DNA of 64,000 bases from Polynucleobacter sp. MWH-UH35A (GTDB lineage: Bacteria > Pseudomonadota > Gammaproteobacteria > Burkholderiales > Burkholderiaceae): the NCBI RefSeq assembly GCF_018687075.1, contig NZ_CP061285.1, positions 1,178,001 to 1,242,000 on the forward strand, written 5' to 3'. A model generated the notes under the pieces. That model saw only the letters and a program-made list of their open reading frames with translations. It was not told the DNA's origin and made no database searches. Positions 3,767 through 14,008 of the stretch are shown one piece after another. Numbering within the stretch: position 1 is the first letter of the stretch; the number at the start of each line of letters is the position of its first letter. The position numbers and the translations under genes were made by a program.

Positions 3767-5458
3767 ATGAAACGCCTTAATGAACGCTCGCGCATGGTCA
3801 CCGAAGGGGTCGCACGCGCACCTAATCGTTCAATGTATTACGCAATGGGTTACGAAGAAAAGGATTTCGTAAAACCAATGGTTGGCGTTGCGAATGGTCA
3901 CTCTACTATCACTCCATGCAATAGTGGTTTGCAAAAATTAGCGGATGCTGCAGTTTCTGCACTTGAAGGCGCTGGTGCAAAAGCACAACTCTTTGGCACG
4001 CCAACTGTATCCGATGGTATTGGCATGGGTACTGAGGGTATGAAATACTCCCTCGTGTCACGCGAAGTTATTGCCGACAGTATTGAAACTTGTGTGAATG
4101 GCTTGTGGCAAGACGGTGTAGTAGTGATTGGTGGTTGCGATAAAAATATGCCAGGCGGCATGATGGCTTTAGCGCGCACTAATGTGCCAGGCATCTATGT
4201 ATACGGCGGCACTATTAAACCAGGGCACTTCAAAGGTAAAGACCTCAATATTGTTTCTGCATTTGAGGCGGTCGGAGAATTTACCTCCGGCAGACTTAGC
4301 GAAGAAGATTTAAAAGGTGTAGAACAACACGCCTGTCCAGGTAGCGGCTCTTGCGGTGGTATGTACACCGCCAACACCATGAGCTCCGCCTTCGAGGCCC
4401 TAGGTATGAGCCTCCCCTACTCCTCAACCATGGCAAACGAAGATGCAGAAAAAGTAGCGAGCGCGCATGATTCTGCTGTTGTATTGGTTGAGGCAATTAA
4501 AAAGAACTTGCGTCCACGCGACATCATTACCAAGAAGTCTATTGAAAACGCTGTGAGCGTCATCATGGCTGTTGGTGGCTCTACCAATGCAGTGCTGCAT
4601 TTCTTGGCCATTACAAGTGCAGCAGAAATTGATTGGACCATTGATGACTTTGAACGTATTCGCAAACGCGTTCCAGTGATCGTTGATATGAAACCATCTG
4701 GCACTTACCTCGCAACTGATTTACATCAGGCTGGCGGTATTCCACAAGTAATGAAGATTTTGCTAGATGGTGGATTGCTCCACGGCGATTGCATGACCAT
4801 CACTGGCAAGACGATTGCTGAAACATTAAAGGATGTGCCATCGGTGCCACGCGCTGATCAAAAAGTGATTCGCACTTTAGACAATCCTTTGTACAAGCAA
4901 GGTCACTTGGCCATTCTGAAAGGCAATATCTCACCAGAGGGTTGCGTTGCGAAGATTACCGGCTTAAAAAACCCATCCATTACCGGTCCAGCACGCGTCT
5001 TTGATTCTGAAGATGACGCTATGGCAGCCATCATGGCGCAGAAAATCAAGGATGGCGACGTAGTAGTCATTCGCTATGAAGGCCCTAAAGGTGGTCCTGG
5101 CATGCGCGAGATGCTCGCCCCAACCTCAGCTCTCGTAGGCCAAGGTTTAGGCGAATCCGTAGGCCTTATTACCGATGGTCGCTTCTCTGGCGGCACATGG
5201 GGCATGGTAGTGGGTCACGTAGCTCCAGAAGCTTATGTCGGCGGCACGATTGCCCTCATCCATGAAGGTGACTCAGTAACGATCGATGCCCATAAATTAC
5301 TCATTCAACTCAACGTGGATGAAGCAGAAATCGCTAAGCGTCGTGCGGCTTGGAAACAACCTAAACCACGCTATACCCGTGGACTACTTGCGAAGTACGC
5401 CAAATTGGCAAGCACCGCGAGTAAAGGTGCAGTTACAGACTTAAACCTGAATGATTAA
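3767..5458 (+). CDS. ilvD: Dihydroxy-acid dehydratase
   Basis: Iron-sulfur dehydratase that converts 2,3-dihydroxy acids to the 2-keto acids of the valine, leucine and isoleucine pathways. The 563-residue length is normal for the short IlvD/Edd form. Cluster ligand motifs are present: CNSG near residue 49, [10 protein letters not shown] near 120-129 and [16 protein letters not shown] near 190. The C-terminal signature [11 protein letters not shown] is intact. The ATG at 3767 has a good ribosome site (TGGAGT) upstream. It is a single-gene unit, closed by a strong terminator. Confidence 0.96.
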
Positions 5459-5474
5459 GATGTTCTAGAAAAAC

Positions 5475-5508
5475 AAAAGCCCCTAGATTTACCTAGGGGC
5501 TTTTTTAT
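5475..5508. terminator. Bidirectional terminator between ilvD and the PCuAC gene
   Basis: Stem AAGCCCCTAG / CTAGGGGCTT around ATTTAC, with T-rich tails on both strands. It serves ilvD (+) and the convergent copper chaperone gene (-). Confidence 0.9.
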
Positions 5509-5537
5509 TACAACAGCATTATTGCTGCAGTAACATC

Positions 5538-6011
5538 TTAGTGCTTCATTGCTCCTGGGTTACCCATCGCATTTACAGGCATTTTCACTTCCACTTCACC
5601 TGCCTTAGCAAACTTAAGCTTTACTGGAACAGTTTCACCGGCAGTTAATGGCGCCTTAATGTTCATAAACATAAGGTGCAAGCCACCTGGCTTGAGCTCC
5701 ACAGCGCCACCAGCAGGCACGGCAATATCTTTTACCTGACGCATCTTCATGACGTTGCCTTCCATTGCCATTTCATGTAACTGCACTTCACCAGCAACCG
5801 GCGAGCTTGCTGATACCAGTTGATCAGCAGCACCTTTATTTTCAATCTTCATAAATCCGCCGGCAGCTTGCTGCCCAGGAACGGTAGCACGGGTATAGGC
5901 ATTTTCAATTTGGACGCTACCAACTTTAGCGTTTTGTGCATTTGCCAAACCACTCAATCCCAAGCCAATTGCCGAGATTAACAATGCCTTCAATAAAGTA
6001 TTACTTTTCAT
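5538..6011 (-). CDS. Periplasmic copper chaperone, PCuAC family (DUF461)
   Basis: Exported copper chaperone of about 157 residues. PCuAC proteins deliver Cu(I) to the CuA/CuB centres of cytochrome oxidase, often together with Sco. The signal peptide ends around GLSGLANAQN. The metal site HxM...MxM...HxM is visible: LHEMAMEGNVMKMRQ, then GGLHLMFMN near residue 115. The ATG at 6011 is chosen over the GTG at 6017 because AGGAGG lies 7 nt before the ATG but only 1 nt before the GTG. The gene stands about 1 kb from the DUF2946/TonB/TlpA cluster, which may make copper handling a theme of this region. Confidence 0.88.
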   Translation of the reverse strand: MKSNTLLKALLISAIGLGLSGLANAQNAKVGSVQIENAYTRATVPGQQAAGGFMKIENKGAADQLVSASSPVAGEVQLHEMAMEGNVMKMRQVKDIAVPAGGAVELKPGGLHLMFMNIKAPLTAGETVPVKLKFAKAGEVEVKMPVNAMGNPGAMKH

Positions 6012-6106
6012 TCTCACTCCTCCTAGTTAAATTCATTCTCATGTCGTTAAATTGTTCATCAAGCAAGCACCTATTGCATTACTGTAATCCCATCCTAGAA
6101 ATGCCA

Positions 6107-6421
6107 TTACTTCGCTGGTTTATCTGAATCTATGAGGGGATATGCATCTGCTACATAGGCGGGACCCTTAGAGAGCATCACGATAAAAGCAGCTATGGCC
6201 AAGGTGAGCACCATACAAACAAAAAATATCTCCGTGCTAATGACCAAAATATCAATCATTCTTTGCGCTTTAGTAGAAAGCAATAACCTTGACAACAAAC
6301 TGGGTAGAGCTAATCCCAAACTACCAAATACGATAATTTGGGGAAGCTCACGTAAGACCTTGCGCTCAAAACCCGGCTCATAGGTTTGATATCCAGGCAA
6401 TTTTCTTAACCAACTTTTCAT
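6107..6421 (-). CDS. Small hypothetical membrane protein
   Basis: I do not recognise this 104-residue protein. It has a short basic, aromatic N-terminus (MKSWLRKLPGYQTYEPGFER), then two hydrophobic segments, about residues 30-48 (IIVFGSLGLALPSLLSRLL) and 58-84 (ILVISTEIFFVCMVLTLAIA), so it is probably a two-helix inner-membrane protein. Its ATG overlaps the stop of the upstream hypothetical gene (ATGA, 6418-6421), which means translational coupling and probably a joint function. About 95 bp separate it from the PCuAC gene downstream in the same direction. Confidence 0.6.
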   Translation of the reverse strand: MKSWLRKLPGYQTYEPGFERKVLRELPQIIVFGSLGLALPSLLSRLLLSTKAQRMIDILVISTEIFFVCMVLTLAIAAFIVMLSKGPAYVADAYPLIDSDKPAK

Positions 6422-7005
6422 GCTGCCAACCTATCGTAATAATTATTGGAGCTGCCACGCTGGAAAATGCCCTTCTTGCTAGCCAGCTCACTCTTTAAAG
6501 CCTCCAGACGCTCCTCTATCATCGCATAAACAGGTCTAAGAGATTTAGCCTGCTCTGACAATAGGCTACCAAGCTCTCTTTTAGAGAAGGCACTCATTCC
6601 TGCTGTACCCATCAAGGCAAAAATGCCGGTTCCCAATTGACGTTTGTACTTTTCAATATCATTGATTTTCTTATGCAGAACGGCCAAATCCTTCAAATGC
6701 GCTCTACCCAGTTTTTGAGGAACATATCCTAAATAGTGTTCATCAAAGCTCTGAATAAAAGCATTATCCGAAGGCAAATCTTTAGGGAGCTTAACCACGA
6801 ATGCCCTTCTCGATGATTGATTGATCCAGATATACCGAATTAACTCAACACAAGAGTAGCGATCAATTGGCTTGCGAGACGGAAACCGATTGTCACAATA
6901 ATGACCCTCTATCTGCTCCGCTGGCAACGATACTTCCTGAGAAACTATAGAAATAATCTGCTTCGCTGTTGCCCCGTTATCGGGACGCTCAATAATGGCG
7001 TACAT
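6418..7005 (-). CDS. Hypothetical cytoplasmic protein coupled to a small membrane protein
   Basis: A 195-residue protein that I cannot assign to a family. There is no signal peptide. The first half is mixed alpha/beta with HYCDNRFPSRKPIDRYSC; the second half (about 105-180) is helical and charged and could form a coiled coil (KKINDIEKYKRQ, IEERLEALKSELASKKG), with a Gly/Ala-rich stretch TGIFALMGTAGMSAF between. I place the start at the ATG at 7005 (MYAIIERP) because GAGGAGG lies 5 nt upstream; an extension to 7032 lacks that. Its stop overlaps the start of the next gene. It does not look like part of the DUF2946 cluster upstream, from which 72 bp separate it. Confidence 0.6.
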   Translation of the reverse strand: MYAIIERPDNGATAKQIISIVSQEVSLPAEQIEGHYCDNRFPSRKPIDRYSCVELIRYIWINQSSRRAFVVKLPKDLPSDNAFIQSFDEHYLGYVPQKLGRAHLKDLAVLHKKINDIEKYKRQLGTGIFALMGTAGMSAFSKRELGSLLSEQAKSLRPVYAMIEERLEALKSELASKKGIFQRGSSNNYYDRLAA

Positions 7006-7077
7006 TAATACCTCCTCATAAATCAACGGCAATTATTTTTGCCAAACGACACAGCAATGCCGTGTCAACACAGTGAT

Positions 7078-7455
7078 TTAGGATTTGGTAGGTGGTGCCC
7101 TAGAAGGAAGCTTGACCCAGGCAGATGGTATCTGCGGGGTTTGATATGCTAATTGCGCTTGCGCCGTATAGCTAAGCGGATCCGCAAAAACAAAAGCGCT
7201 AATGCTTGGTAATAAATAGATTGGCTGCACAACACAGTATGGGCAATGACTACCCATGGCAGCAGATGAAGAAGGCTCATCGTCTCCGATGACCTGAGTC
7301 ATCTTTGTGCCATTAGTGGTACAAATCTCAACTACAAAACCTTGGCCATTACTAGCCAAAGATAAAGCCTGTGAAACAGCAGGCGCAAGCGCACTCAACA
7401 AGATAGCTAAAGCAGCTATCCAGTGTATGAGTTTGCGTACTGCTAAATGTCGCAT
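7078..7455 (-). CDS. DUF2946-type exported CxxC protein (copy 2)
   Basis: Exported or membrane-anchored protein of 125 residues with an N-terminal hydrophobic segment ending near SALAPAVSQA, a single Cys at 45 (VEICTTNG) and a C-terminal thiol pair HCPYC (Cys71, Cys74). The start motif (L)IHWIA...ILLSALAPAVSQA and the EIC...CPYC pattern are shared with the paralogue at 11475-11846, at the other end of the same gene run. DUF2946 genes often sit beside TonB receptors and copper genes, so a periplasmic metal-binding or metal-sensing role is likely but unproven. It is the last gene of the run, 8 nt after the TlpA-like gene. Confidence 0.75.
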   Translation of the reverse strand: MRHLAVRKLIHWIAALAILLSALAPAVSQALSLASNGQGFVVEICTTNGTKMTQVIGDDEPSSSAAMGSHCPYCVVQPIYLLPSISAFVFADPLSYTAQAQLAYQTPQIPSAWVKLPSRAPPTKS

Positions 7456-7463
7456 AGTAAAGC

Positions 7464-7943
7464 TTATGTATTCCCTAAAGATTTTTGAAGTTGACGAAAG
7501 TCAATCAAGCCTGTTTTACGAGTAGTCTTGCCTGTTTTATCAATCATAATGGTTGTAGGTGTTTCACCATGCCACTGTGGATCAATCTCATAACGTAAGC
7601 GCTCATCAAATGGCGCAACTACATAGTAATTATTTGCCCTATCTAAACCTGCTTTATTCAGCATTTTTTTTATGGCATCCTGTGAAACATCGTCGACCTG
7701 AATAAAGACTACTTTTGCAGTTGGATTATTTTTAAGAAACTGGCCCCACTGGGGCATCTCTTTGACGCACGCTGGGCAGGTAACCCCCCAAAAATGGACT
7801 GCCAGTGGCGCACCATTAGCAGCCTTAGTAATAGCCTTCCATTCCCCGAATTGATATGGCTTGAGGGAGATCGTATCTGCTAACGCCAATCCAGAAATAG
7901 ATAGGACTAAGCTTATAAATAGTGTCGACCAAAATTGTTTCAT
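7464..7943 (-). CDS. TlpA/ResA-like periplasmic thioredoxin
   Basis: Membrane-tethered or secreted thiol-disulfide protein of 159 residues. The signal segment is residues 1-22 (ending LALADT). The thioredoxin fold carries the active site WGVTCPACVKE (Cys56, Cys59) and the cis-Pro loop GETPTT. Such proteins reduce periplasmic cysteines, for example in CuA maturation, cytochrome c assembly or metal-site delivery. Its ATG overlaps the TGA of the BNR protein gene (ATGA at 7940-7943), so the two are made together. The natural reading is that it keeps the Cys-rich neighbours (BNR protein, DUF2946 proteins) reduced. Confidence 0.85.
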   Translation of the reverse strand: MKQFWSTLFISLVLSISGLALADTISLKPYQFGEWKAITKAANGAPLAVHFWGVTCPACVKEMPQWGQFLKNNPTAKVVFIQVDDVSQDAIKKMLNKAGLDRANNYYVVAPFDERLRYEIDPQWHGETPTTIMIDKTGKTTRKTGLIDFRQLQKSLGNT

Positions 7944-9199
7944 TGCTTGCGCCCTAGATTTATTAATTGATATCCATCATCGCGCGTTAGCCAAGATAAA
8001 AATACTTCATTACCTGCATTCACCAAAAGAGGGTGATCACTATATCCTGCTGTACTTGACAACATTTTAGGTGAACCCCAAGAATGGCCATCATCCGAAG
8101 ACTCCTTTAGATATATTGATGACTTCATCCCGTCAAATTCTTTCCATACAAGCCAAACTTGTTGTCCCAAGGCAAATAAATAAGGCCTAGCAACATTTGC
8201 TCCCTCCGATCCAATGCGACTTGGCTTTGTATAAGTTACCCCTTGGTTGCTCGAGTTGGCATAGAACACACCGGAGCGTTTGTTACCTTGGGTATACCAA
8301 GCAACATGAAACTTTCCAGACCCAGATACTGCAATAGATGGTCCATGGTGCGGACAAGCGTCAGTCTTCCATTCATCATCCGCAACCTTACGAATAGGCT
8401 CAGCACCTTTGTTGGAGATCACTTGGGAGGCTTGGTCTCTTATACCCCCTGGAAAGATGGCGCGATAGATAATAACTGGCTGATTTTTTGGGTCTAAGGC
8501 AACGCCAATGCGGCAGCACTCGCAACTACTCTCATTCGCAAAACGTTCTACCTGAAATGTCTTACCACCATCTTCAGACAAAGAGTAGGCAATAGCACCG
8601 CCCAAGCGTTTCTCACCACCCTGCTTTGCTGCAGCAACTAGACGTTTATCAATCCATGAGATAAATAAATTGCCGTTCGGCTTTATGAGCACCGATGGAA
8701 AGCGTTGGCTAGAGCCATCATTAACCAAGGATGTCGGCGCTGTAAAAGTAATGCCGCCATCCGTGGATCGGGCGGTATTAATTTGCGCATTCCAATTAGA
8801 GTCCTTGAAAAAGCTATACGCCAAAAAGACGTTATTTTCCTTATCGGCAACAATTTGTGGTCTGGCATCACTGCCTGCATCAAGCGATTTACCGTGTTCG
8901 GCAATCTTGACAGCAGGAGAGAATGTTTTTGCCAAATCCTCAGATTGCGCAACAGAGACAACTCCATTCGCCGTCCATGCTAGGAGCAATGATCCATTTT
9001 GAAGAAAAAATGGGGTTGCAGCGTTTGCGCACTCCAACCCCCCACCCTGACAAACACCGCTCACTTTAGTTGAAGTGGCTCCAGCCATGTGTGAGGAGTG
9101 GTCAATTTGCGCCTGAGCCGAACCAACGCTACCAAGCACACTCATTAGAAGTGCGCCAAGCCAAAGTTGTTGACTCCAGAAGAAAATAGTTTGTTTCAT
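7940..9199 (-). CDS. Exported BNR/sialidase-fold protein with Cys/His clusters
   Basis: Exported 419-residue beta-propeller. The signal peptide ends near GSAQAQ (residue 31). Asp-box (BNR) repeats are visible: STDGGITF (~145), SEDGGKTF (~208), SNQGVTYT and SDDGHSWG. What stands out are thiol/imidazole clusters unusual for a sialidase: HSSHM (34-38), GVCQGGGLEC (Cys50, Cys57), SSCECC (Cys226, 228, 229) and ACPHHGP (Cys282, His284, His285). I do not see the sialidase arginine triad with confidence, and no sialic acid genes lie nearby. The gene starts 2 nt after the TonB receptor stop with no clear ribosome site, so it is probably translationally coupled. I read it as a metal-binding periplasmic propeller rather than a glycosidase. 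Confidence 0.7.
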   Translation of the reverse strand: MKQTIFFWSQQLWLGALLMSVLGSVGSAQAQIDHSSHMAGATSTKVSGVCQGGGLECANAATPFFLQNGSLLLAWTANGVVSVAQSEDLAKTFSPAVKIAEHGKSLDAGSDARPQIVADKENNVFLAYSFFKDSNWNAQINTARSTDGGITFTAPTSLVNDGSSQRFPSVLIKPNGNLFISWIDKRLVAAAKQGGEKRLGGAIAYSLSEDGGKTFQVERFANESSCECCRIGVALDPKNQPVIIYRAIFPGGIRDQASQVISNKGAEPIRKVADDEWKTDACPHHGPSIAVSGSGKFHVAWYTQGNKRSGVFYANSSNQGVTYTKPSRIGSEGANVARPYLFALGQQVWLVWKEFDGMKSSIYLKESSDDGHSWGSPKMLSSTAGYSDHPLLVNAGNEVFLSWLTRDDGYQLINLGRKQ

Positions 9200-9201
9200 T
9201 A

Positions 9202-11391
9202 TTAGAAGATGATACGTGCACCCACAGAAATTGCCTGCGGCATACCGATGACATAGCTAGTATTACTGGAGCCAGTTCCAAAGGTAATATATTGGCGATT
9301 AAACAAATTCACTGCAGAAGCATATATCGTAGTGTTCTTAGTCATCTCATAGTTTGCACGAAGTCCCACTACCGCATAGGAAGCCACAGGCAAGGTATTG
9401 GAAGTGTTTAACCATGAACTGCCTACATAGCGTACTGTAGCGGTCAAACTGGCTTGTGGTACTGGATAGTAAGTTAAGCCACCACCAAGAATATTTTGCG
9501 GAACACCGCCCACTTGCTTATTAATTGGGTCACTTGTTGCGCTCATCGTTAGCTTAGTGCTAGTAAAAGCATAGTTAGCATCGGTAGCCCACTTGGAGTT
9601 AATGTCATGGTGAAACTGAAACTCGATACCTTGACTCAAAAGATTCTGGTTATTAGTGTAGTAGCTAATGTTGGTGGAATTACAAATACCAACATTTCCA
9701 GTGCCAGCTAAAGGGTTGCCGGTAGCACCGCAGAGACTTTTTGCCAAAGCTACATCGCTAGAACTTCTACTAGAGAGGCTATAAGTCGCGACTGCATTTT
9801 GAATATAGTTATTAAACGCCGTTAACTGTGCAAATCCGCCCTTCCAGCGATAGTCTGTACCAACCTCATAACCCGTCATCGTTTCAGGAGTGAGGTTTGG
9901 GTTAGCAAAACTGTAGCCACTCGATGACCCGTAAGAGCGCAGCGTGTTGTTCATACCTGGGGCATGAAAAGCCTGATAGGCAGCAGAACGAATATCCCAA
10001 TCCTTATTCATCTTATACAGCAAGCCTAAAGTCGGGCTAAATTGCGTCTTGCTTTGATTTGGAATATTTTGATACGCAGGATTAGCGCCGTTTGGGCCTG
10101 CATTGTAATTGGTTGGCGTCTGACTATTCCATTGATCCACACGCGCCGCCAAAGTAGTTTCTAAAGGAAAAGATTCCGCTTTGGATTTGAGCTGCCCCAT
10201 CAAACCATAAAACGTTTGCTGACCCTGAGCATAGTTCACTGCTGCTGAGGTGCCATTGTTATTTAAGTTATTGGTTAAATTAGATCCAGCAATATTGCGC
10301 GCGTCAACTCCGACTACATACTGATCAATCAACCCCGTCGTTTCTTGAGTATATTGAGCAGAGGCGCCGACAGTACTGTAGGGATCTTTGTAATTGGCAT
10401 TGATGTAAGGCGTATTTGCTGGGATATTATTTGATCTAGTTGTCGTCGTAGAGCCATTCTGCTTATTAAAGCCTGTGTTCTCGTAGAAGAAATTCACATC
10501 AACTTTTGACTTGTCATCTAAGCGCGTAGTAGTGCCACCAGCCAAATCCGTTTCTTGCATGATGTTGGTCGCAAAAGCGTAACCAGATGAGAGATCTGAC
10601 ATGGTGTGATAGCCAACACGGAAGAAACCGCTCGTATCTTGGGTCGCCTTGAAATAGCCCTGCATTCTCACGTTGGAGTTATGTGAGGCAGCATCTCCCT
10701 GGCCATTTTTAATGCTCGTTGGTGATGCCGGGGATATCGTCGCTATATTTTGATAGCCATCGGTATTGAAATAATCTGCCGAGAAACGTAACTGAAGATT
10801 CTCAGAAGCAATCAAATCTTTGGATGCTGCAACATTACCAGTACCAAATGCACCATAGCTAGCAGATGCCTCTTGCTGACTATTGACTGGAGTTTTGGTC
10901 TTGATGTTAATCACACCACCCATGCCATAGTTGCCCCACAAGCTAGAAACACCACCGCGAATAAATTCTACCGAATCAATCGAGGACATCGGAACTAAGT
11001 TCCACTGTACCGTGCCATAAAACGCATCATTGGCAGGTACGCCATCAATCAAAACCAAAGTTCTAGCATTTCCCAAACCGCGAACGTTAATACTCTGCCC
11101 TGTTGGATCCTTTTGGTAGTAAGGCTGATCATTAAGGATGACGCCAGGCACATTCTTTAAAATTTGGTCAACAGTTTGATCCGGCGCTACCTCTAATGCC
11201 TCTTTTGTGAGAACCGTGGTGTTTAACGGAATTTCATCTAGCGGCGTCCCAGAACGGGTTGCGGTTACCGTAACACTTTTGAGCTTCTGATCATAATCAG
11301 GCGGTGGCGCAATTTGCGCCTGCGCATTAATTAATACCGATCCAAATAGCATACCCACGCATGCGCTAATTTTTTTCTGCTTGAACAACAT
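9202..11391 (-). CDS. TonB-dependent outer-membrane receptor
   Basis: About 729 residues. The signal peptide ends near LINAQAQ; a TonB-box-like segment (KSVTVTATRS) follows. The plug domain has LVLIDGVPANDAFYG and FIRGGVSSLWGNYGMGGVINIKT. A long beta-barrel follows and ends in the classic terminal phenylalanine (SVGARIIF). The ATG at 11391 (MLFKQKK) is preferred over the GTG at 11403, because GGAG lies 6 nt upstream of the ATG. The substrate is not evident from the sequence. The neighbours (two CPYC-bearing DUF2946 proteins, a thioredoxin and the Cys/His-rich propeller, with PCuAC nearby) point to a metal such as copper rather than a siderophore or sugar. Confidence 0.88.
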   Translation of the reverse strand: MLFKQKKISACVGMLFGSVLINAQAQIAPPPDYDQKLKSVTVTATRSGTPLDEIPLNTTVLTKEALEVAPDQTVDQILKNVPGVILNDQPYYQKDPTGQSINVRGLGNARTLVLIDGVPANDAFYGTVQWNLVPMSSIDSVEFIRGGVSSLWGNYGMGGVINIKTKTPVNSQQEASASYGAFGTGNVAASKDLIASENLQLRFSADYFNTDGYQNIATISPASPTSIKNGQGDAASHNSNVRMQGYFKATQDTSGFFRVGYHTMSDLSSGYAFATNIMQETDLAGGTTTRLDDKSKVDVNFFYENTGFNKQNGSTTTTRSNNIPANTPYINANYKDPYSTVGASAQYTQETTGLIDQYVVGVDARNIAGSNLTNNLNNNGTSAAVNYAQGQQTFYGLMGQLKSKAESFPLETTLAARVDQWNSQTPTNYNAGPNGANPAYQNIPNQSKTQFSPTLGLLYKMNKDWDIRSAAYQAFHAPGMNNTLRSYGSSSGYSFANPNLTPETMTGYEVGTDYRWKGGFAQLTAFNNYIQNAVATYSLSSRSSSDVALAKSLCGATGNPLAGTGNVGICNSTNISYYTNNQNLLSQGIEFQFHHDINSKWATDANYAFTSTKLTMSATSDPINKQVGGVPQNILGGGLTYYPVPQASLTATVRYVGSSWLNTSNTLPVASYAVVGLRANYEMTKNTTIYASAVNLFNRQYITFGTGSSNTSYVIGMPQAISVGARIIF

Positions 11392-11474
11392 TTTCCACTC
11401 CACTGTTTATTACGGCAACGCTTTGAAAGATTCGTTGCTAACTACATAGCTAAACGCTATGCCCTAATTTTTAA

Positions 11475-11846
11475 TTAGGCTTGTGTAGGAGGAGCTGCTG
11501 AGGGAGGGGTTACCCAAACAGCAAGAGGTTTGGGTGATTGATAGAAGAGCTTCGGAAGCAACGCAAAGGTATTTGGCGCTTCGAAAGTGAGATTGGTATT
11601 GAATGCTGGTGTGATAGTGTTTTGCGCTACACAATACGGGCAAGGTTTTGCTTGATCAGCAACTTCTTGATCATCTGTTTGCACGTCTAAGGTAATTTTT
11701 GCTCCGCTCGTAGAGCAAATCTCCATCGCAAAACCTTGGCCATGCTTCGCAAGCGAGACCGCTTGCGAAACTGCTGGCGCAAGCGCACTCATCGCAATGG
11801 CTGCAGTTGCAATCCAGTGAATGAGGCGGTTTTTATGGAAATTCAT
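11475..11846 (-). CDS. DUF2946-type exported CxxC protein (copy 1)
   Basis: A 123-residue protein with an N-terminal hydrophobic segment (LIHWIATAAIAMSALAPAVSQA), Cys44 (MEICSTSG) and a C-terminal PCPYC pair (Cys69, Cys72). It is clearly paralogous to the protein at 7078-7455; they share the leader and the EIC/CPYC arrangement but differ in the C-terminal tail. It is the first gene of the minus-strand run, 83 bp before the TonB receptor start, and probably sets the promoter for the locus. A short hairpin (CCTAATT/AATTAGG, 11463-11479) overlaps its stop. Confidence 0.75.
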   Translation of the reverse strand: MNFHKNRLIHWIATAAIAMSALAPAVSQAVSLAKHGQGFAMEICSTSGAKITLDVQTDDQEVADQAKPCPYCVAQNTITPAFNTNLTFEAPNTFALLPKLFYQSPKPLAVWVTPPSAAPPTQA

Positions 11847-11885
11847 GATGGAGGGATTTTATCGGAATTTCTGAGACTCAAATGC

Positions 11886-11911
11886 AAAAAGGAGGCTTTC
11901 GCCCCCTTTTC
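11886..11911. terminator. Terminator after tctA
   Basis: Read on the minus strand: stem AAGGGGGC / GCCTCCTT with a GAAA loop, followed by a T run. It closes the tct operon before the DUF2946/TonB run. Confidence 0.8.
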
Positions 11912-11942
11912 ACTTAGAAATCGCTATTTCTAGCATATCTCT

Positions 11943-13439
11943 TTATGCCGCTGCCTTTTTCTTGCCTACGAACTTGCCAATCAATGGCCAGAAGAGGAGG
12001 AGCAAAGCTACTGAAGTGATGCCTGCTACTAAGTAGTTTGAGAAGAATACGTCCAAACTGCCTTGTGAAATCAGCATGGACTGACGGAATGAATCCTCTG
12101 CGCGATCACCCAACACCAAAGCCAAGACCATTGGCGCCATTGGGTAATCCAGCTTCTTGAATACATAACCCAATACACCAAAGCCCAACATCAACCAAAC
12201 GTCAAATGTGGCGTTGTGAACTGTGTATGCACCCACCGCACAAATCACAATGATGACTGGAGCAATAATGGAGAACGGAATTCTCAAAATGGAGGCAAAG
12301 AGTGGTACGCAAGTTAATACCACAAACAAGCCTGCCAAGTTACCCAAGTACATACTAGCGATCAAGCCCCACACAAAGTCTGGTTTCTCAACGAAGAGCA
12401 ATGGGCCTGGTTGTAAACCCCAGATCAACAAACCGCCAAGCAATACTGCTGCAGTTGGTGAACCAGGAATACCTAAAGACAACATTGGCAGAAGTGCTGA
12501 TGTACCAGCTGCGTGAGCTGCGGTTTCTGGAGCAACAATACCTTCCATCTTGCCGGTGCCAAACTTATCGCCATCCTTGGATACGCGTTTAGCAACGCCG
12601 TAAGCCATGAAAGAGGCTGGTGTAGCGCCGCCAGGAGTAATACCCATCCAGCAACCAATCAAGCAGCTGCGTAATGAAGTAGCCCAGTACTTAGGCAATT
12701 CTTTCCAGGTTTCCAAAACGACTTTGCCGCGAATCTTTGCAGCAGCACCTTGGAAGGCTAGCCCCTCTTCCATTGAGAGGAGGATCTCGCCGATACCAAA
12801 CAAACCAATCACCGCAATCAAGAAGTCAAAACCTCGCATCAGTTCAGGATGACCGAATGTCAAGCGCAATTGACCTGTCACAGTGTCCATACCAACAGTT
12901 GCTAGAGCAAAGCCCAACATCATGGCAGAAATGGTTTTGAATGGTGAACCCTTATTCATACCGACAAAGCTACAGAAGGTCAGCAAATAGACGGAGAAAA
13001 ATTCTGGGGGTCCAAACTGCAAAGCAAACTTAGCAACCAATGGAGCCAAGAAGGTAATCATTACGATCGCAAAGAAAGCGCCTACAAATGAAGATGTAAA
13101 TGCGGCTGTCAATGCTTCGCCAGCTTTACCATTACGAGCCATTGGATAACCATCAAAGGTTGTTGCCACAGACCACGGTTCGCCAGGGATGTTAAACAGG
13201 ACCGATGTAATCGCCCCACCAAATAATGCGCCCCAGTAAATACAGGACAGCATAATGATCGCGGATGTCGGCGGCATGGTGAACGTCAATGGCAACAGGA
13301 TCGCAATGCCGTTTGCACCGCCCAAACCTGGCAACACGCCAATAATCACACCGAGCGTTACACCAACCAACATTAACAGCAAGTTAAAGGGTGTCATTGC
13401 AACGGCAAAGCCGTTGAATAGAGCGCTAATTTCTTCCAA
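11943..13439 (-). CDS. tctA: Tripartite tricarboxylate transporter, large permease TctA
   Basis: Inner-membrane permease of 498 residues with about 12 transmembrane segments. It couples carboxylate import to an ion gradient together with TctB and the periplasmic protein TctC. Family hallmarks include the N-terminal GVLPGLGGANGIAILLPLTF, the duplicated GITPGGATPASFMAYGVAKR, and TSALLPMLSLGIPGSPTAAVLLGGLLIWGL. It is the last gene of tctC-tctB-tctA, 41 bp after tctB. The substrate is not readable from the permease; citrate, tartrate or aromatic acids are all known for the family. Confidence 0.93.
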   Translation of the reverse strand: MEEISALFNGFAVAMTPFNLLLMLVGVTLGVIIGVLPGLGGANGIAILLPLTFTMPPTSAIIMLSCIYWGALFGGAITSVLFNIPGEPWSVATTFDGYPMARNGKAGEALTAAFTSSFVGAFFAIVMITFLAPLVAKFALQFGPPEFFSVYLLTFCSFVGMNKGSPFKTISAMMLGFALATVGMDTVTGQLRLTFGHPELMRGFDFLIAVIGLFGIGEILLSMEEGLAFQGAAAKIRGKVVLETWKELPKYWATSLRSCLIGCWMGITPGGATPASFMAYGVAKRVSKDGDKFGTGKMEGIVAPETAAHAAGTSALLPMLSLGIPGSPTAAVLLGGLLIWGLQPGPLLFVEKPDFVWGLIASMYLGNLAGLFVVLTCVPLFASILRIPFSIIAPVIIVICAVGAYTVHNATFDVWLMLGFGVLGYVFKKLDYPMAPMVLALVLGDRAEDSFRQSMLISQGSLDVFFSNYLVAGITSVALLLLFWPLIGKFVGKKKAAA

Positions 13440-13480
13440 CTTGAACTCCTTATTTAATCTTTTTTAATAGTTATTGTTTT

Positions 13481-14008
13481 TTATTGCACACCCAAGAACT
13501 CGAGCGGGTTAAACCATGAGCCGTGTGGCAATGGAACTTGAAACCAGAACTCGAACATGAGGTACAGGGCTACGCTCACCCCAACTGCAACTGTGATTGC
13601 TTTCCACAAAGGATATTTCCCGAGCCACACCATGAAGATGGCAATGTAGAAGACTGAGGAAACATAAATACCAATTAACTGTACGCCCAACACAAATACC
13701 ACTGCAGGCAACAAGACGGCCATAACTTGATTAAATGGCTCTTTCTCCACAAAAGATTCGGTCTTTTTATTCTTATTAACAATCGCTGCCTGATAAAGCG
13801 TTACAGCACTCGAGAGCATCATGATCAAGCTAATGTAGAAAGGGAAATAGCCAGCCTCCGGACCATCGCTACCCCAACTAGCGCCTAATTTAATACTTCC
13901 CACCATCACTGTTAAACCAATCGCAAGAAATACGATCGCTGTAACAATATCCATTGCTCTAGTACTAATAACCGAGTCTTGTTTTGCGTTGTTTGTATGT
14001 TCAGACAT
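13481..14008 (-). CDS. tctB: Tripartite tricarboxylate transporter, small permease TctB
   Basis: A 175-residue membrane protein with four predicted transmembrane helices, the usual TctB size. The first helix is IVTAIVFLAIGLTVMVGSIKLG, followed by GPEAGYFPFYISLIMMLSS, which matches the conserved GPxxGxFP start of the family. It sits between tctC and tctA, as expected. A hairpin between tctC and this gene probably lowers its expression relative to the binding protein. Confidence 0.9.
   Translation of the reverse strand: MSEHTNNAKQDSVISTRAMDIVTAIVFLAIGLTVMVGSIKLGASWGSDGPEAGYFPFYISLIMMLSSAVTLYQAAIVNKNKKTESFVEKEPFNQVMAVLLPAVVFVLGVQLIGIYVSSVFYIAIFMVWLGKYPLWKAITVAVGVSVALYLMFEFWFQVPLPHGSWFNPLEFLGVQ

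Follow-up and report, generated by a model that had tools for sequence, protein, structure and literature searches.

What is the task of a gene run in which a TonB-dependent receptor, a propeller protein and a thioredoxin-like protein are enclosed by two proteins of the DUF2946 family? Such a run occupies positions 7078 to 11846 of a stretch of 64,000 nt from Polynucleobacter sp. MWH-UH35A (contig NZ_CP061285.1, positions 1,178,001 to 1,242,000), hereafter the window, to which all coordinates refer; the genome searched is a single contig of 1.96 Mb. A preliminary description of this DNA had taken the five genes for one candidate set that imports and hands over a metal, probably copper. The comparison reported here makes it probable that this is a copper-starvation-induced locus for outer-membrane copper uptake and delivery, built of two stacked regulatory modules, and that each DUF2946 gene (named here cruR1 and cruR2) is an upstream open reading frame (uORF) acting as a Shine-Dalgarno (SD) switch.

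Two probable stacked modules in a likely copper setting

Reading of the open reading frames (ORFs) in the sequence confirmed that the five genes lie tightly together on the minus strand, as do all features given below, with gaps of 83, 2, -4 and 8 nt if the receptor is started at its ATG (the ORF list also holds an upstream GTG at 11403). From cruR1 (11475 to 11846) the order continues with the TonB-dependent outer-membrane receptor (9202 to 11391; Pfam TonB plug and barrel), the exported BNR/Asp-box propeller protein (7940 to 9199), a TlpA-like periplasmic thioredoxin (7464 to 7943) and cruR2 (7078 to 7455). The two DUF2946 genes, the only ones in the genome, match Pfam PF11162 at 1e-11 (46.0 bits) and 2.3e-17 (64.3 bits), both over the cut-off of 23.7. 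Behind cruR2 there are genes for a protein of 195 aa counted from its ATG (6418 to 7005), whose function is unassigned by Pfam (no match) and which has 41 database relatives, Polynucleobacter among them, and for a small protein of 104 aa without a Pfam match and with two hydrophobic stretches by eye (6107 to 6421). These are followed by the gene of the periplasmic copper chaperone PCuAC (5538 to 6017; Pfam 3e-41), which had been noticed at about 1 kb and lies approximately 1.06 kb from cruR2.

Both DUF2946 genes are thus present, as first described, but the second one does not close the unit. A further cruR directly precedes the 195-aa gene in seven genomes of the genus besides the window (L032, L033, L096, L097, L099, L100 and L103), and L095 has a cruR in front of relatives of both Pfam-less genes, whose order is swapped; because this arrangement is found elsewhere too, cruR2 is taken as the head of a second module, joined to the first one, rather than as its tail. 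The locus is therefore likely to consist of cruR1-receptor-propeller-TlpA and of cruR2-two unassigned genes-PCuAC, each cruR standing first in a putative copper operon.

The setting of these genes was followed through the genus in 96 stretches fetched by DUF2946 matches, 83 of them from Polynucleobacter genomes; gene order was read in 82, leaving out L047, which has a weak DUF2946 match with a stop. A PCuAC gene is found in 73 of the 82 stretches, and ilvD together with a TctA or MFS transporter gene in 65, marking one common slot in which cruR is combined with a receptor cassette that can be exchanged and usually with PCuAC. In 81 genomes including the window, cassette A (receptor-propeller-TlpA) occurs 44 times, C 10 times, F six, D six, B five, B with C twice and A with D once, and seven genomes have none, so that 71 carry one of the five types and three carry two; this count covers stretches around DUF2946 genes (one or two per genome) at identity thresholds, and a cassette elsewhere would be missed. 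Since the cassettes are nearly mutually exclusive, they are suggested to do the same job, and cassette F would name that job as copper: it is a cruR-to-PCuAC operon with a different receptor, which passes the copper-receptor model TIGR01778 with 614 bits in the one genome tested (L036). The cassette B receptor reaches 117 bits with this model, under the cut-off of 472. Copper acquisition is thus the likely role of the locus, supported by the identity of DUF2946 with CruR (see below), by PCuAC in 73 of 82 stretches and by the cassette F receptor.

The window receptor was considered as an OprC type and rejected, TIGR01778 not being among the 20 families listed for it at E up to 0.1. It is also set apart from the Bordetella receptor CrtA, whose gene is adjoined by a PepSY_TM gene in over 75% of loci (PMC12914433), the gene that follows here being that of the propeller. 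Further marks of the CrtA family are a conserved His358 and residues of a citrate site.

Several other features of this slot were observed. In cassette D (L034, L041, L044, L055, L057, L129 and L144) a protein of approximately 350 aa with CSSCGC near its start, without a Pfam match in L034, where it was tested, replaces the TonB receptor behind cruR, and a TlpA gene lies on the opposite strand. Cassettes B and C have a small DsrE-family protein after the TonB receptor (L032: 11043-11408 and 14434-14874), which may replace the propeller as a sulfur or copper partner. In cassette F (L036, L045, L046 and L093) a Crp-like regulator stands between cruR and the copper-type receptor, making two layers of control. 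The cassette appears decayed in two genomes: in L110 the receptor and propeller ORFs are in pieces, and in L097 the receptor is in pieces and the head cruR shortened. In five loci (L032, L095, L096, L099 and L103) a DUF2244 membrane protein, the family being tested in L032, precedes PCuAC behind a cruR2-type uORF and two Pfam-less ORFs.

A propeller family with invariant cysteines

The propeller protein matches BNR_2 at 3.9e-11, over the cut-off, and contains all Cys/His motifs previously pointed out (Cys50/57, Cys226/228/229, Cys282/His284/His285 and HSSHM); CECCR (residues 226-230, 8510 to 8524) and CPHHG (residues 282-286, 8342 to 8356) were read back from the DNA. Conservation extends to part of these clusters. 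In an alignment of 104 sequences with 98 distinct strings (44 near and 54 far relatives, 14 of the far strings being second reads of a gene already present, so that about 84 genes are represented), Cys226, Cys228, Cys229, Cys282, Arg230, Arg246, Arg254, Trp182, Trp277, Trp301, Asp184 and His298 are invariant in 98 of 98, followed by His284 (97), Arg186 (96), His285 (93) and His34 (82). Cys50/57 are no feature of the family, being kept in 44 of 44 near relatives but only in 11 of 54 far ones. Asp-box-like sites lie at residues 86, 145, 208, 316 and 367, with a degenerate one near 262 by eye; because CECCR and CPHHG follow consecutive Asp-boxes (208 and about 262) at similar distances, they could face each other near the propeller axis.

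The family extends far outside the genus. The search yielded 3110 relatives at E<=1e-10 among 8000 scored candidates, and GTDB species genomes contain no fewer than 586 related loci; at E<=1e-20, samples of 398 genomes from the phylum and 300 from the order contained the propeller in 15 and 40 cases, respectively, counting the window's own genome and members of the genus. Among 80 loci of a named collection, which includes Bradyrhizobium, Rhodopseudomonas, Alcaligenaceae metagenome-assembled genomes and Jezberella as well as genus members, the propeller ORF was annotated in 78, and these bear out the expected co-occurrence of the CECC/CPHHGP propeller with its partners: 71 have a TonB receptor as the immediate upstream neighbour, 58 have TlpA as the immediate downstream neighbour, in 53 PCuAC is no more than four genes away, and 41 have a CruR-like ORF upstream. 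Another set, drawn from named and unnamed collections together, in which a gene may be counted twice, contains 150 locus entries where a propeller ORF is present; immediately upstream of it there is an ORF of receptor size in 121 of them, and immediately downstream a CxxC ORF in 118 (related count: 118 with the window, 114 at one per locus name). In several Bradyrhizobium (L260-L296) the propeller and TlpA genes were seen between receptor and PCuAC of what we take to be a pcu operon. The literature searched here contained no publication on the propeller family in a copper setting, and a family with invariant CECCR/CPHHG cysteines and His298, accompanied by receptor and TlpA far beyond the genus, appears to be new.

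The thioredoxin-like partner in the window has CPAC, with matches just under the cut-offs (Redoxin 24.7 bits against 26.6; ResA/DsbE profiles also below). That the propeller receives or carries copper in the periplasm is plausible from these sequence patterns. We consider it rather unlikely that the protein has an enzymatic function or a non-copper cargo, hydrolysing or releasing a copper ligand, for instance, or that CECC/CPHHG forms a disulfide or zinc fold site. This alternative can draw on the invariant Trp182, Asp184, Arg230, Arg246, Arg254, Trp277 and Trp301 beside the Cys/His set, on a sub-threshold Pfam match to glycosyl hydrolase 43 and on the receptors, among 115 of which no His or Cys is invariant, a point that also tells against copper uptake; it is opposed by the co-occurrence of the propeller with CruR-like ORFs and PCuAC and by four invariant cysteines next to a thioredoxin-like gene. 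A sialidase role, already doubted in the preliminary description, was set aside, given that NanE has no match over the cut-off in the genome (one weak match, 21.5 bits against 27). Among solved structures in the PDB no significant sequence relative of the propeller was detected (best E 1.8).

DUF2946 genes as probable CruR-type upstream ORFs

In Bordetella pertussis, Roy et al. (2022) described the DUF2946 protein CruR as an uORF in which copper is sensed by CXXC and whose C-terminal RAPP is required for expression of the following genes (PMC9426467). Arrest of Bordetella CruR was demonstrated in vitro and is lost in R139A, which gives AAPP (PMC12992588), while R139A with A140S abolishes expression of the next gene in vivo. 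The DUF2946 proteins of the window are likely to be regulatory uORFs of this type and not carriers, a role supported by the published relative and by the codon, RNA and position evidence.

Both window copies have CPYC at a spacing of 44 residues from the C-terminal motif. This spacing is shared by 92 of 93 uORFs, which were picked by a pattern demanding PP near the end; PP is therefore invariant by selection, while the Arg place, Pro -3, Trp -6 and the exact spacing were left free (the head DUF2946 of L097, which ends early, after CP, is outside the set). The cruR2 product has the canonical end LPSRAPPTKS and thus RAPP, whereas cruR1 ends without it, in SAAPP (VTPPSAAPPTQA), and is called a CruR-like, Arg-less variant for this reason. 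Most head CruRs of the genus are Arg-less in the same manner, with PPSAAPP in place of LPSRAPP: the Arg place holds Ala in 68 of the 93 uORFs, Arg in 19, Thr in three, Gln in two and Val in one, and in a midpoint-rooted tree the 72 copies in which Ala, Thr or Val stands there make up a single clade with no other members (support 0.854). Position -3, counted from the Arg place, is Pro in 72 of 72 Arg-less copies and never in the 19 Arg copies, where it is mostly Leu (14). Among the best 120 of 1066 database proteins, 118 have Ala at this place, one Gly and one a different end.

In the 72 Arg-less copies, residues -19 to +3 are the most conserved part, with 15 of 23 conserved at >=95%, compared with four of nine around CXXC, four of 20 between and none of 43 upstream (-100 to -90 and -80 to -49, residues -89 to -81 being skipped). 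The stretch -19 to +3 would sit in the ribosome tunnel. Its invariant residues are encoded by several synonymous codons, and conservation of the C-terminal stretch while synonymous codons vary indicates that the Arg-less peptide itself is under selection. PPSAAPP may be either another arrest sequence or a sign that the logic differs. That head CruRs throughout the genus keep sensor, spacing and RNA fold despite loss of an Arg essential in Bordetella appears to be a new observation.

Predicted pairing of the last uORF codons with the next Shine-Dalgarno sequence

Hairpins are found behind both window cruR copies and many others. A detectable SD was present behind 91 of the 93 uORFs, and length limits and removal of duplicates left 86 leaders, 69 Arg-less and 17 with Arg or Gln. 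An alignment of 68 of the Arg-less leaders (A1; L146 was too short) shows four helices, P1 to P4. P1 joins the last cruR codons to the SD that follows, and P2 encloses the stop codon. In leader RNA 1 (11398 to 11491) these correspond to the anti-SD (11481-11491) in the last cruR1 codons with the receptor-gene SD (11398-11403), and to P2 (11463-11479), P3 (11444-11462) and P4 (11415-11438); in leader RNA 2 (7003 to 7125) the 3' end and stop codon of cruR2 pair with the next SD around two hairpins.

Pairing was found in 89.7% of the cells of the A1 helices. Changes on both sides occurred in 15 of 29 pairs, against 7 to 13 when the strands were slid, and there were 56 double-change cells, against 19 to 44 in slides and 18.9 +- 3.6 in shuffles, which ignore kinship; slid strands gave covariation scores of no more than 0.058, against 0.155 observed. 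Pairing is lowest in P1 (80.9%), in part owing to lineages that pair in a different register (GCUCCAC with GUGGAG), and double changes occur in five pairs of this helix. The SD is predicted to pair with the uORF 3' end at P>0.5 in 79 of 86 leaders (63 of 69 Arg-less, 16 of 17 Arg or Gln), compared with 38 of 282 further gene pairs taken from these loci, a control not fully matched, as its starts are those of the longest ORF and leader starts those with the best SD. Codon choice favours this pairing beyond the synonymous-codon null, with a mean of 0.77 against 0.60 in Arg-less leaders (highest of 30 replicates 0.66) and of 0.84 against 0.54 in Arg/Gln leaders (highest 0.72).

A1 spans the leaders of cassettes A, B, C and D, and since the leader RNA can still be recognised with a different receptor downstream, it is assigned to cruR. 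Arg-type leaders follow the same plan with other sequences, the cassette F SD GCGAGU being matched by CUCGC in the last codons and the SD GGAGAA of L143 by UUCUCC. A covariance model built from Arg-less leaders found in the whole genome the cruR1 leader, a training member, and the cruR2 leader, which was not in training (E=1.8e-12), with no further match at E<=1 among the best 150 of 501 first-look candidates scored. A match at E<=0.01 was present in 45 of 61 genus genomes; the strong matches fall at DUF2946 places, the weak ones near the threshold not all, and part of the signal is protein conservation because the model includes the arrest codons. Rfam gave no match above the gathering score over 5000-13500 (two weak matches), and a hairpin inside the arrest codons proposed by RNAalifold was set aside since codon -8 varies without a partner change.

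The anti-SD lies within codons P(+2) to Q(+5), and when the ribosomal P site is at P(+2), some 15 nt beyond it are shielded as well, the 5' strand of P1 among them. In fold predictions, accessibility of the cruR1 SD rises from 0.63 to 0.92 with this footprint blocked and is 0.19 with a ribosome at the stop codon, a result that favours the SD switch, although not strongly.

Besides the imperfect control, a number of results weigh against such a switch. One kind of control pair, NadE-PII, exceeds 0.5 in 19 of 57 cases, and the CC-rich Pro codons by themselves account for much of the anti-SD, as the null of 0.60 with synonymous codons shows. In a further leader set pairing exceeded 0.5 in 20 of 40, and in 17 of 36 without genus members and a repeat (L052, L053 and L109 belong to the genus by classification, and L251 lies on the L053 contig), starts having been chosen automatically there (L109 gives 0.00 in this set and 0.88 with another start). 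In cruR1 itself the SD is 0.63 accessible without a ribosome (0.25 in a shorter fold) and the duplex is -7.9 kcal/mol against a mean of -12.3, while blocking the footprint raises the cruR2 SD only from 0.14 to 0.30 and the mean of the 86 leaders from 0.18 to 0.46, with a gain >0.3 in 37 of 86. Finally, cruR1 naturally carries the AAPP end that abolishes arrest as R139A in Bordetella. Altogether, the proposed SD switch is supported by comparison over the genus and weak in cruR1 itself.

The same weakness is one of the grounds for Rho-dependent termination as the switch, as published for bp2923-bfrG of B. pertussis (PMC9426467), with the hairpins only stabilising the RNA or shaping the pause site. 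The C/G ratio of 2.2 to 3.5 in 70-nt windows of the cruR1 3' half also fits this explanation, which we hold to be unlikely given that the intergenic stretch is 83 nt here and 162 nt in Bordetella, that codon choice favours SD pairing beyond the null, that five SD-helix pairs show double changes and that lineages with other SD sequences have matching last codons. Rho termination may nevertheless act beside the SD switch at the C-over-G stretch of cruR1.

We give little credence to the idea that the Arg-less cruR1 is inverted, copper prolonging the pause so that the receptor is on with copper. It takes its model from Rhodobacter CutF, whose Pro-rich end lacks RAPP and in which copper prolongs the stall and opens a stem-loop over the SD (PMC9973294, PMC8456105), and cruR1 likewise lacks Arg and has PP at -3/-2; yet cruR1 shares CXXC, the 44-residue spacing and the kind of gene context with CruR, CutF has CXXXC, and receptor and PCuAC genes are sensible under starvation, not excess. 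That the DUF2946 proteins are exported copper chaperones within the hand-over chain, a reading that has leader-like N-termini and CPYC in its favour, as well as the chaperone role first proposed for CutF (PMC8456105), is very improbable: a Bordetella frameshift removing the export signal leaves expression and regulation unchanged and mature CruR is thought short-lived by its authors (PMC9426467), and constraint falls on the C-terminal tunnel stretch, on CXXC and on nucleotides able to pair with the SD, not on the middle of the protein.

Proposed mechanism and implications

In the mechanism that we propose for the two-module locus with its SD switches, the receptor of module 1 would bring a copper complex into the periplasm, the Cys/His propeller would then receive the copper or strip it, and the TlpA thioredoxin would keep the propeller cysteines reduced. 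In module 2, cruR2 and the two unassigned genes would be followed by PCuAC passing Cu(I) to cytochrome oxidase, two COX1 genes being present in the genome. Each cruR would be a disposable sensor. When copper is scarce, the ribosome would pause on the C-terminal xAPP codons and cover the last uORF codons that otherwise pair with the next SD, and the next gene would be translated; copper on the nascent CPYC would release the pause, the ribosome would leave and the SD would be hidden again. To this scheme the present comparison contributes gene order, conservation, base-pairing potential, codon bias for pairing and covariation, and the Bordetella CruR literature contributes arrest, copper sensing by CXXC and the effect on the receptor gene. 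From both we infer that metal binding, arrest and a copper response would occur here, with both uORFs arresting and switching, the Arg-less one included, and with the propeller in the role given above.

More tentatively, one operon might hold two arrest peptides of different design, the Arg-less PPSAAPP and the canonical LPSRAPP, with the same RNA fold, each reading copper for its own module at its own threshold so that import is staged before delivery, and the propeller, reduced by its own thioredoxin, might represent a previously undescribed class of periplasmic proteins that carry copper or strip it from its ligand.

Passage of copper across the outer membrane and its hand-over in bacteria are still poorly understood, and this locus offers a widespread candidate partner in the periplasm for copper TonB receptors, with a short list of residues to mutate. 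The Arg-less clade across one genus is a natural test of the arrest-peptide rule. Pairing of the SD by the final codons of the uORF itself would be a simple means of control, and other DUF2946 leaders may use it too. That these codons can pair with the next SD around conserved hairpins appears new: the word "Shine" is absent from the main texts of PMC9426467 and PMC12992588, and the publications found to join CruR with SD sequences concern CutF (PMC9973294) and Sec/YidC arrest peptides (PMC10987492).

Comparison with known systems

The catalytic set of sialidases consists of an Arg triad, Tyr/Glu and Asp; in the propeller family Arg230, Arg246 and Arg254 are invariant and Arg186 is kept in 96 of 98. 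With bacterial sialidases the propeller shares Asp-box repeats and the BNR_2 match, but its family signature is CECCR-CPHHG-His298. The names OprC and NosA, which we take to denote TIGR01778-type copper receptors, apply to a kind of receptor that sits in other cruR-PCuAC operons of the genus (cassette F), whereas the window receptor is not a TIGR01778 match.

With pcuABCDE of Bradyrhizobium, a copper-starvation operon cited with its receptor PcuB in PMC12617631, the locus shares a TonB receptor and PCuAC. Some Bradyrhizobium have the order CruR-type ORF, receptor, propeller, TlpA, PCuAC. The named pcuABCDE operon presumably lacks propeller and TlpA genes.

CutF-CutO of Rhodobacter capsulatus (PMC9973294, PMC8456105) is alike in having an exported uORF with a Cys motif and a Pro-rich end and RNA structure over the SD of the next gene. 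It differs in its CXXXC, in a stall prolonged by copper and in its target, a multicopper oxidase, and unlike in CutF the predicted anti-SD here is formed by the last codons of the uORF itself.

The closest parallel is CruR-bfrG/crtA-crpH of B. pertussis (PMC9426467, PMC12914433, PMC13038864), where likewise a DUF2946 uORF heads the operon, a TonB receptor follows, and CXXC, PP near the C-terminus and a link to heme-copper oxidases are found; the receptor imports copper chelates and serves respiratory oxidases (PMC12914433). Bordetella has a PepSY_TM partner where the window has propeller and TlpA, its CruR ends in RAPP and cruR1 in SAAPP, and one uORF with a Rho model there stands against two uORFs in series here.

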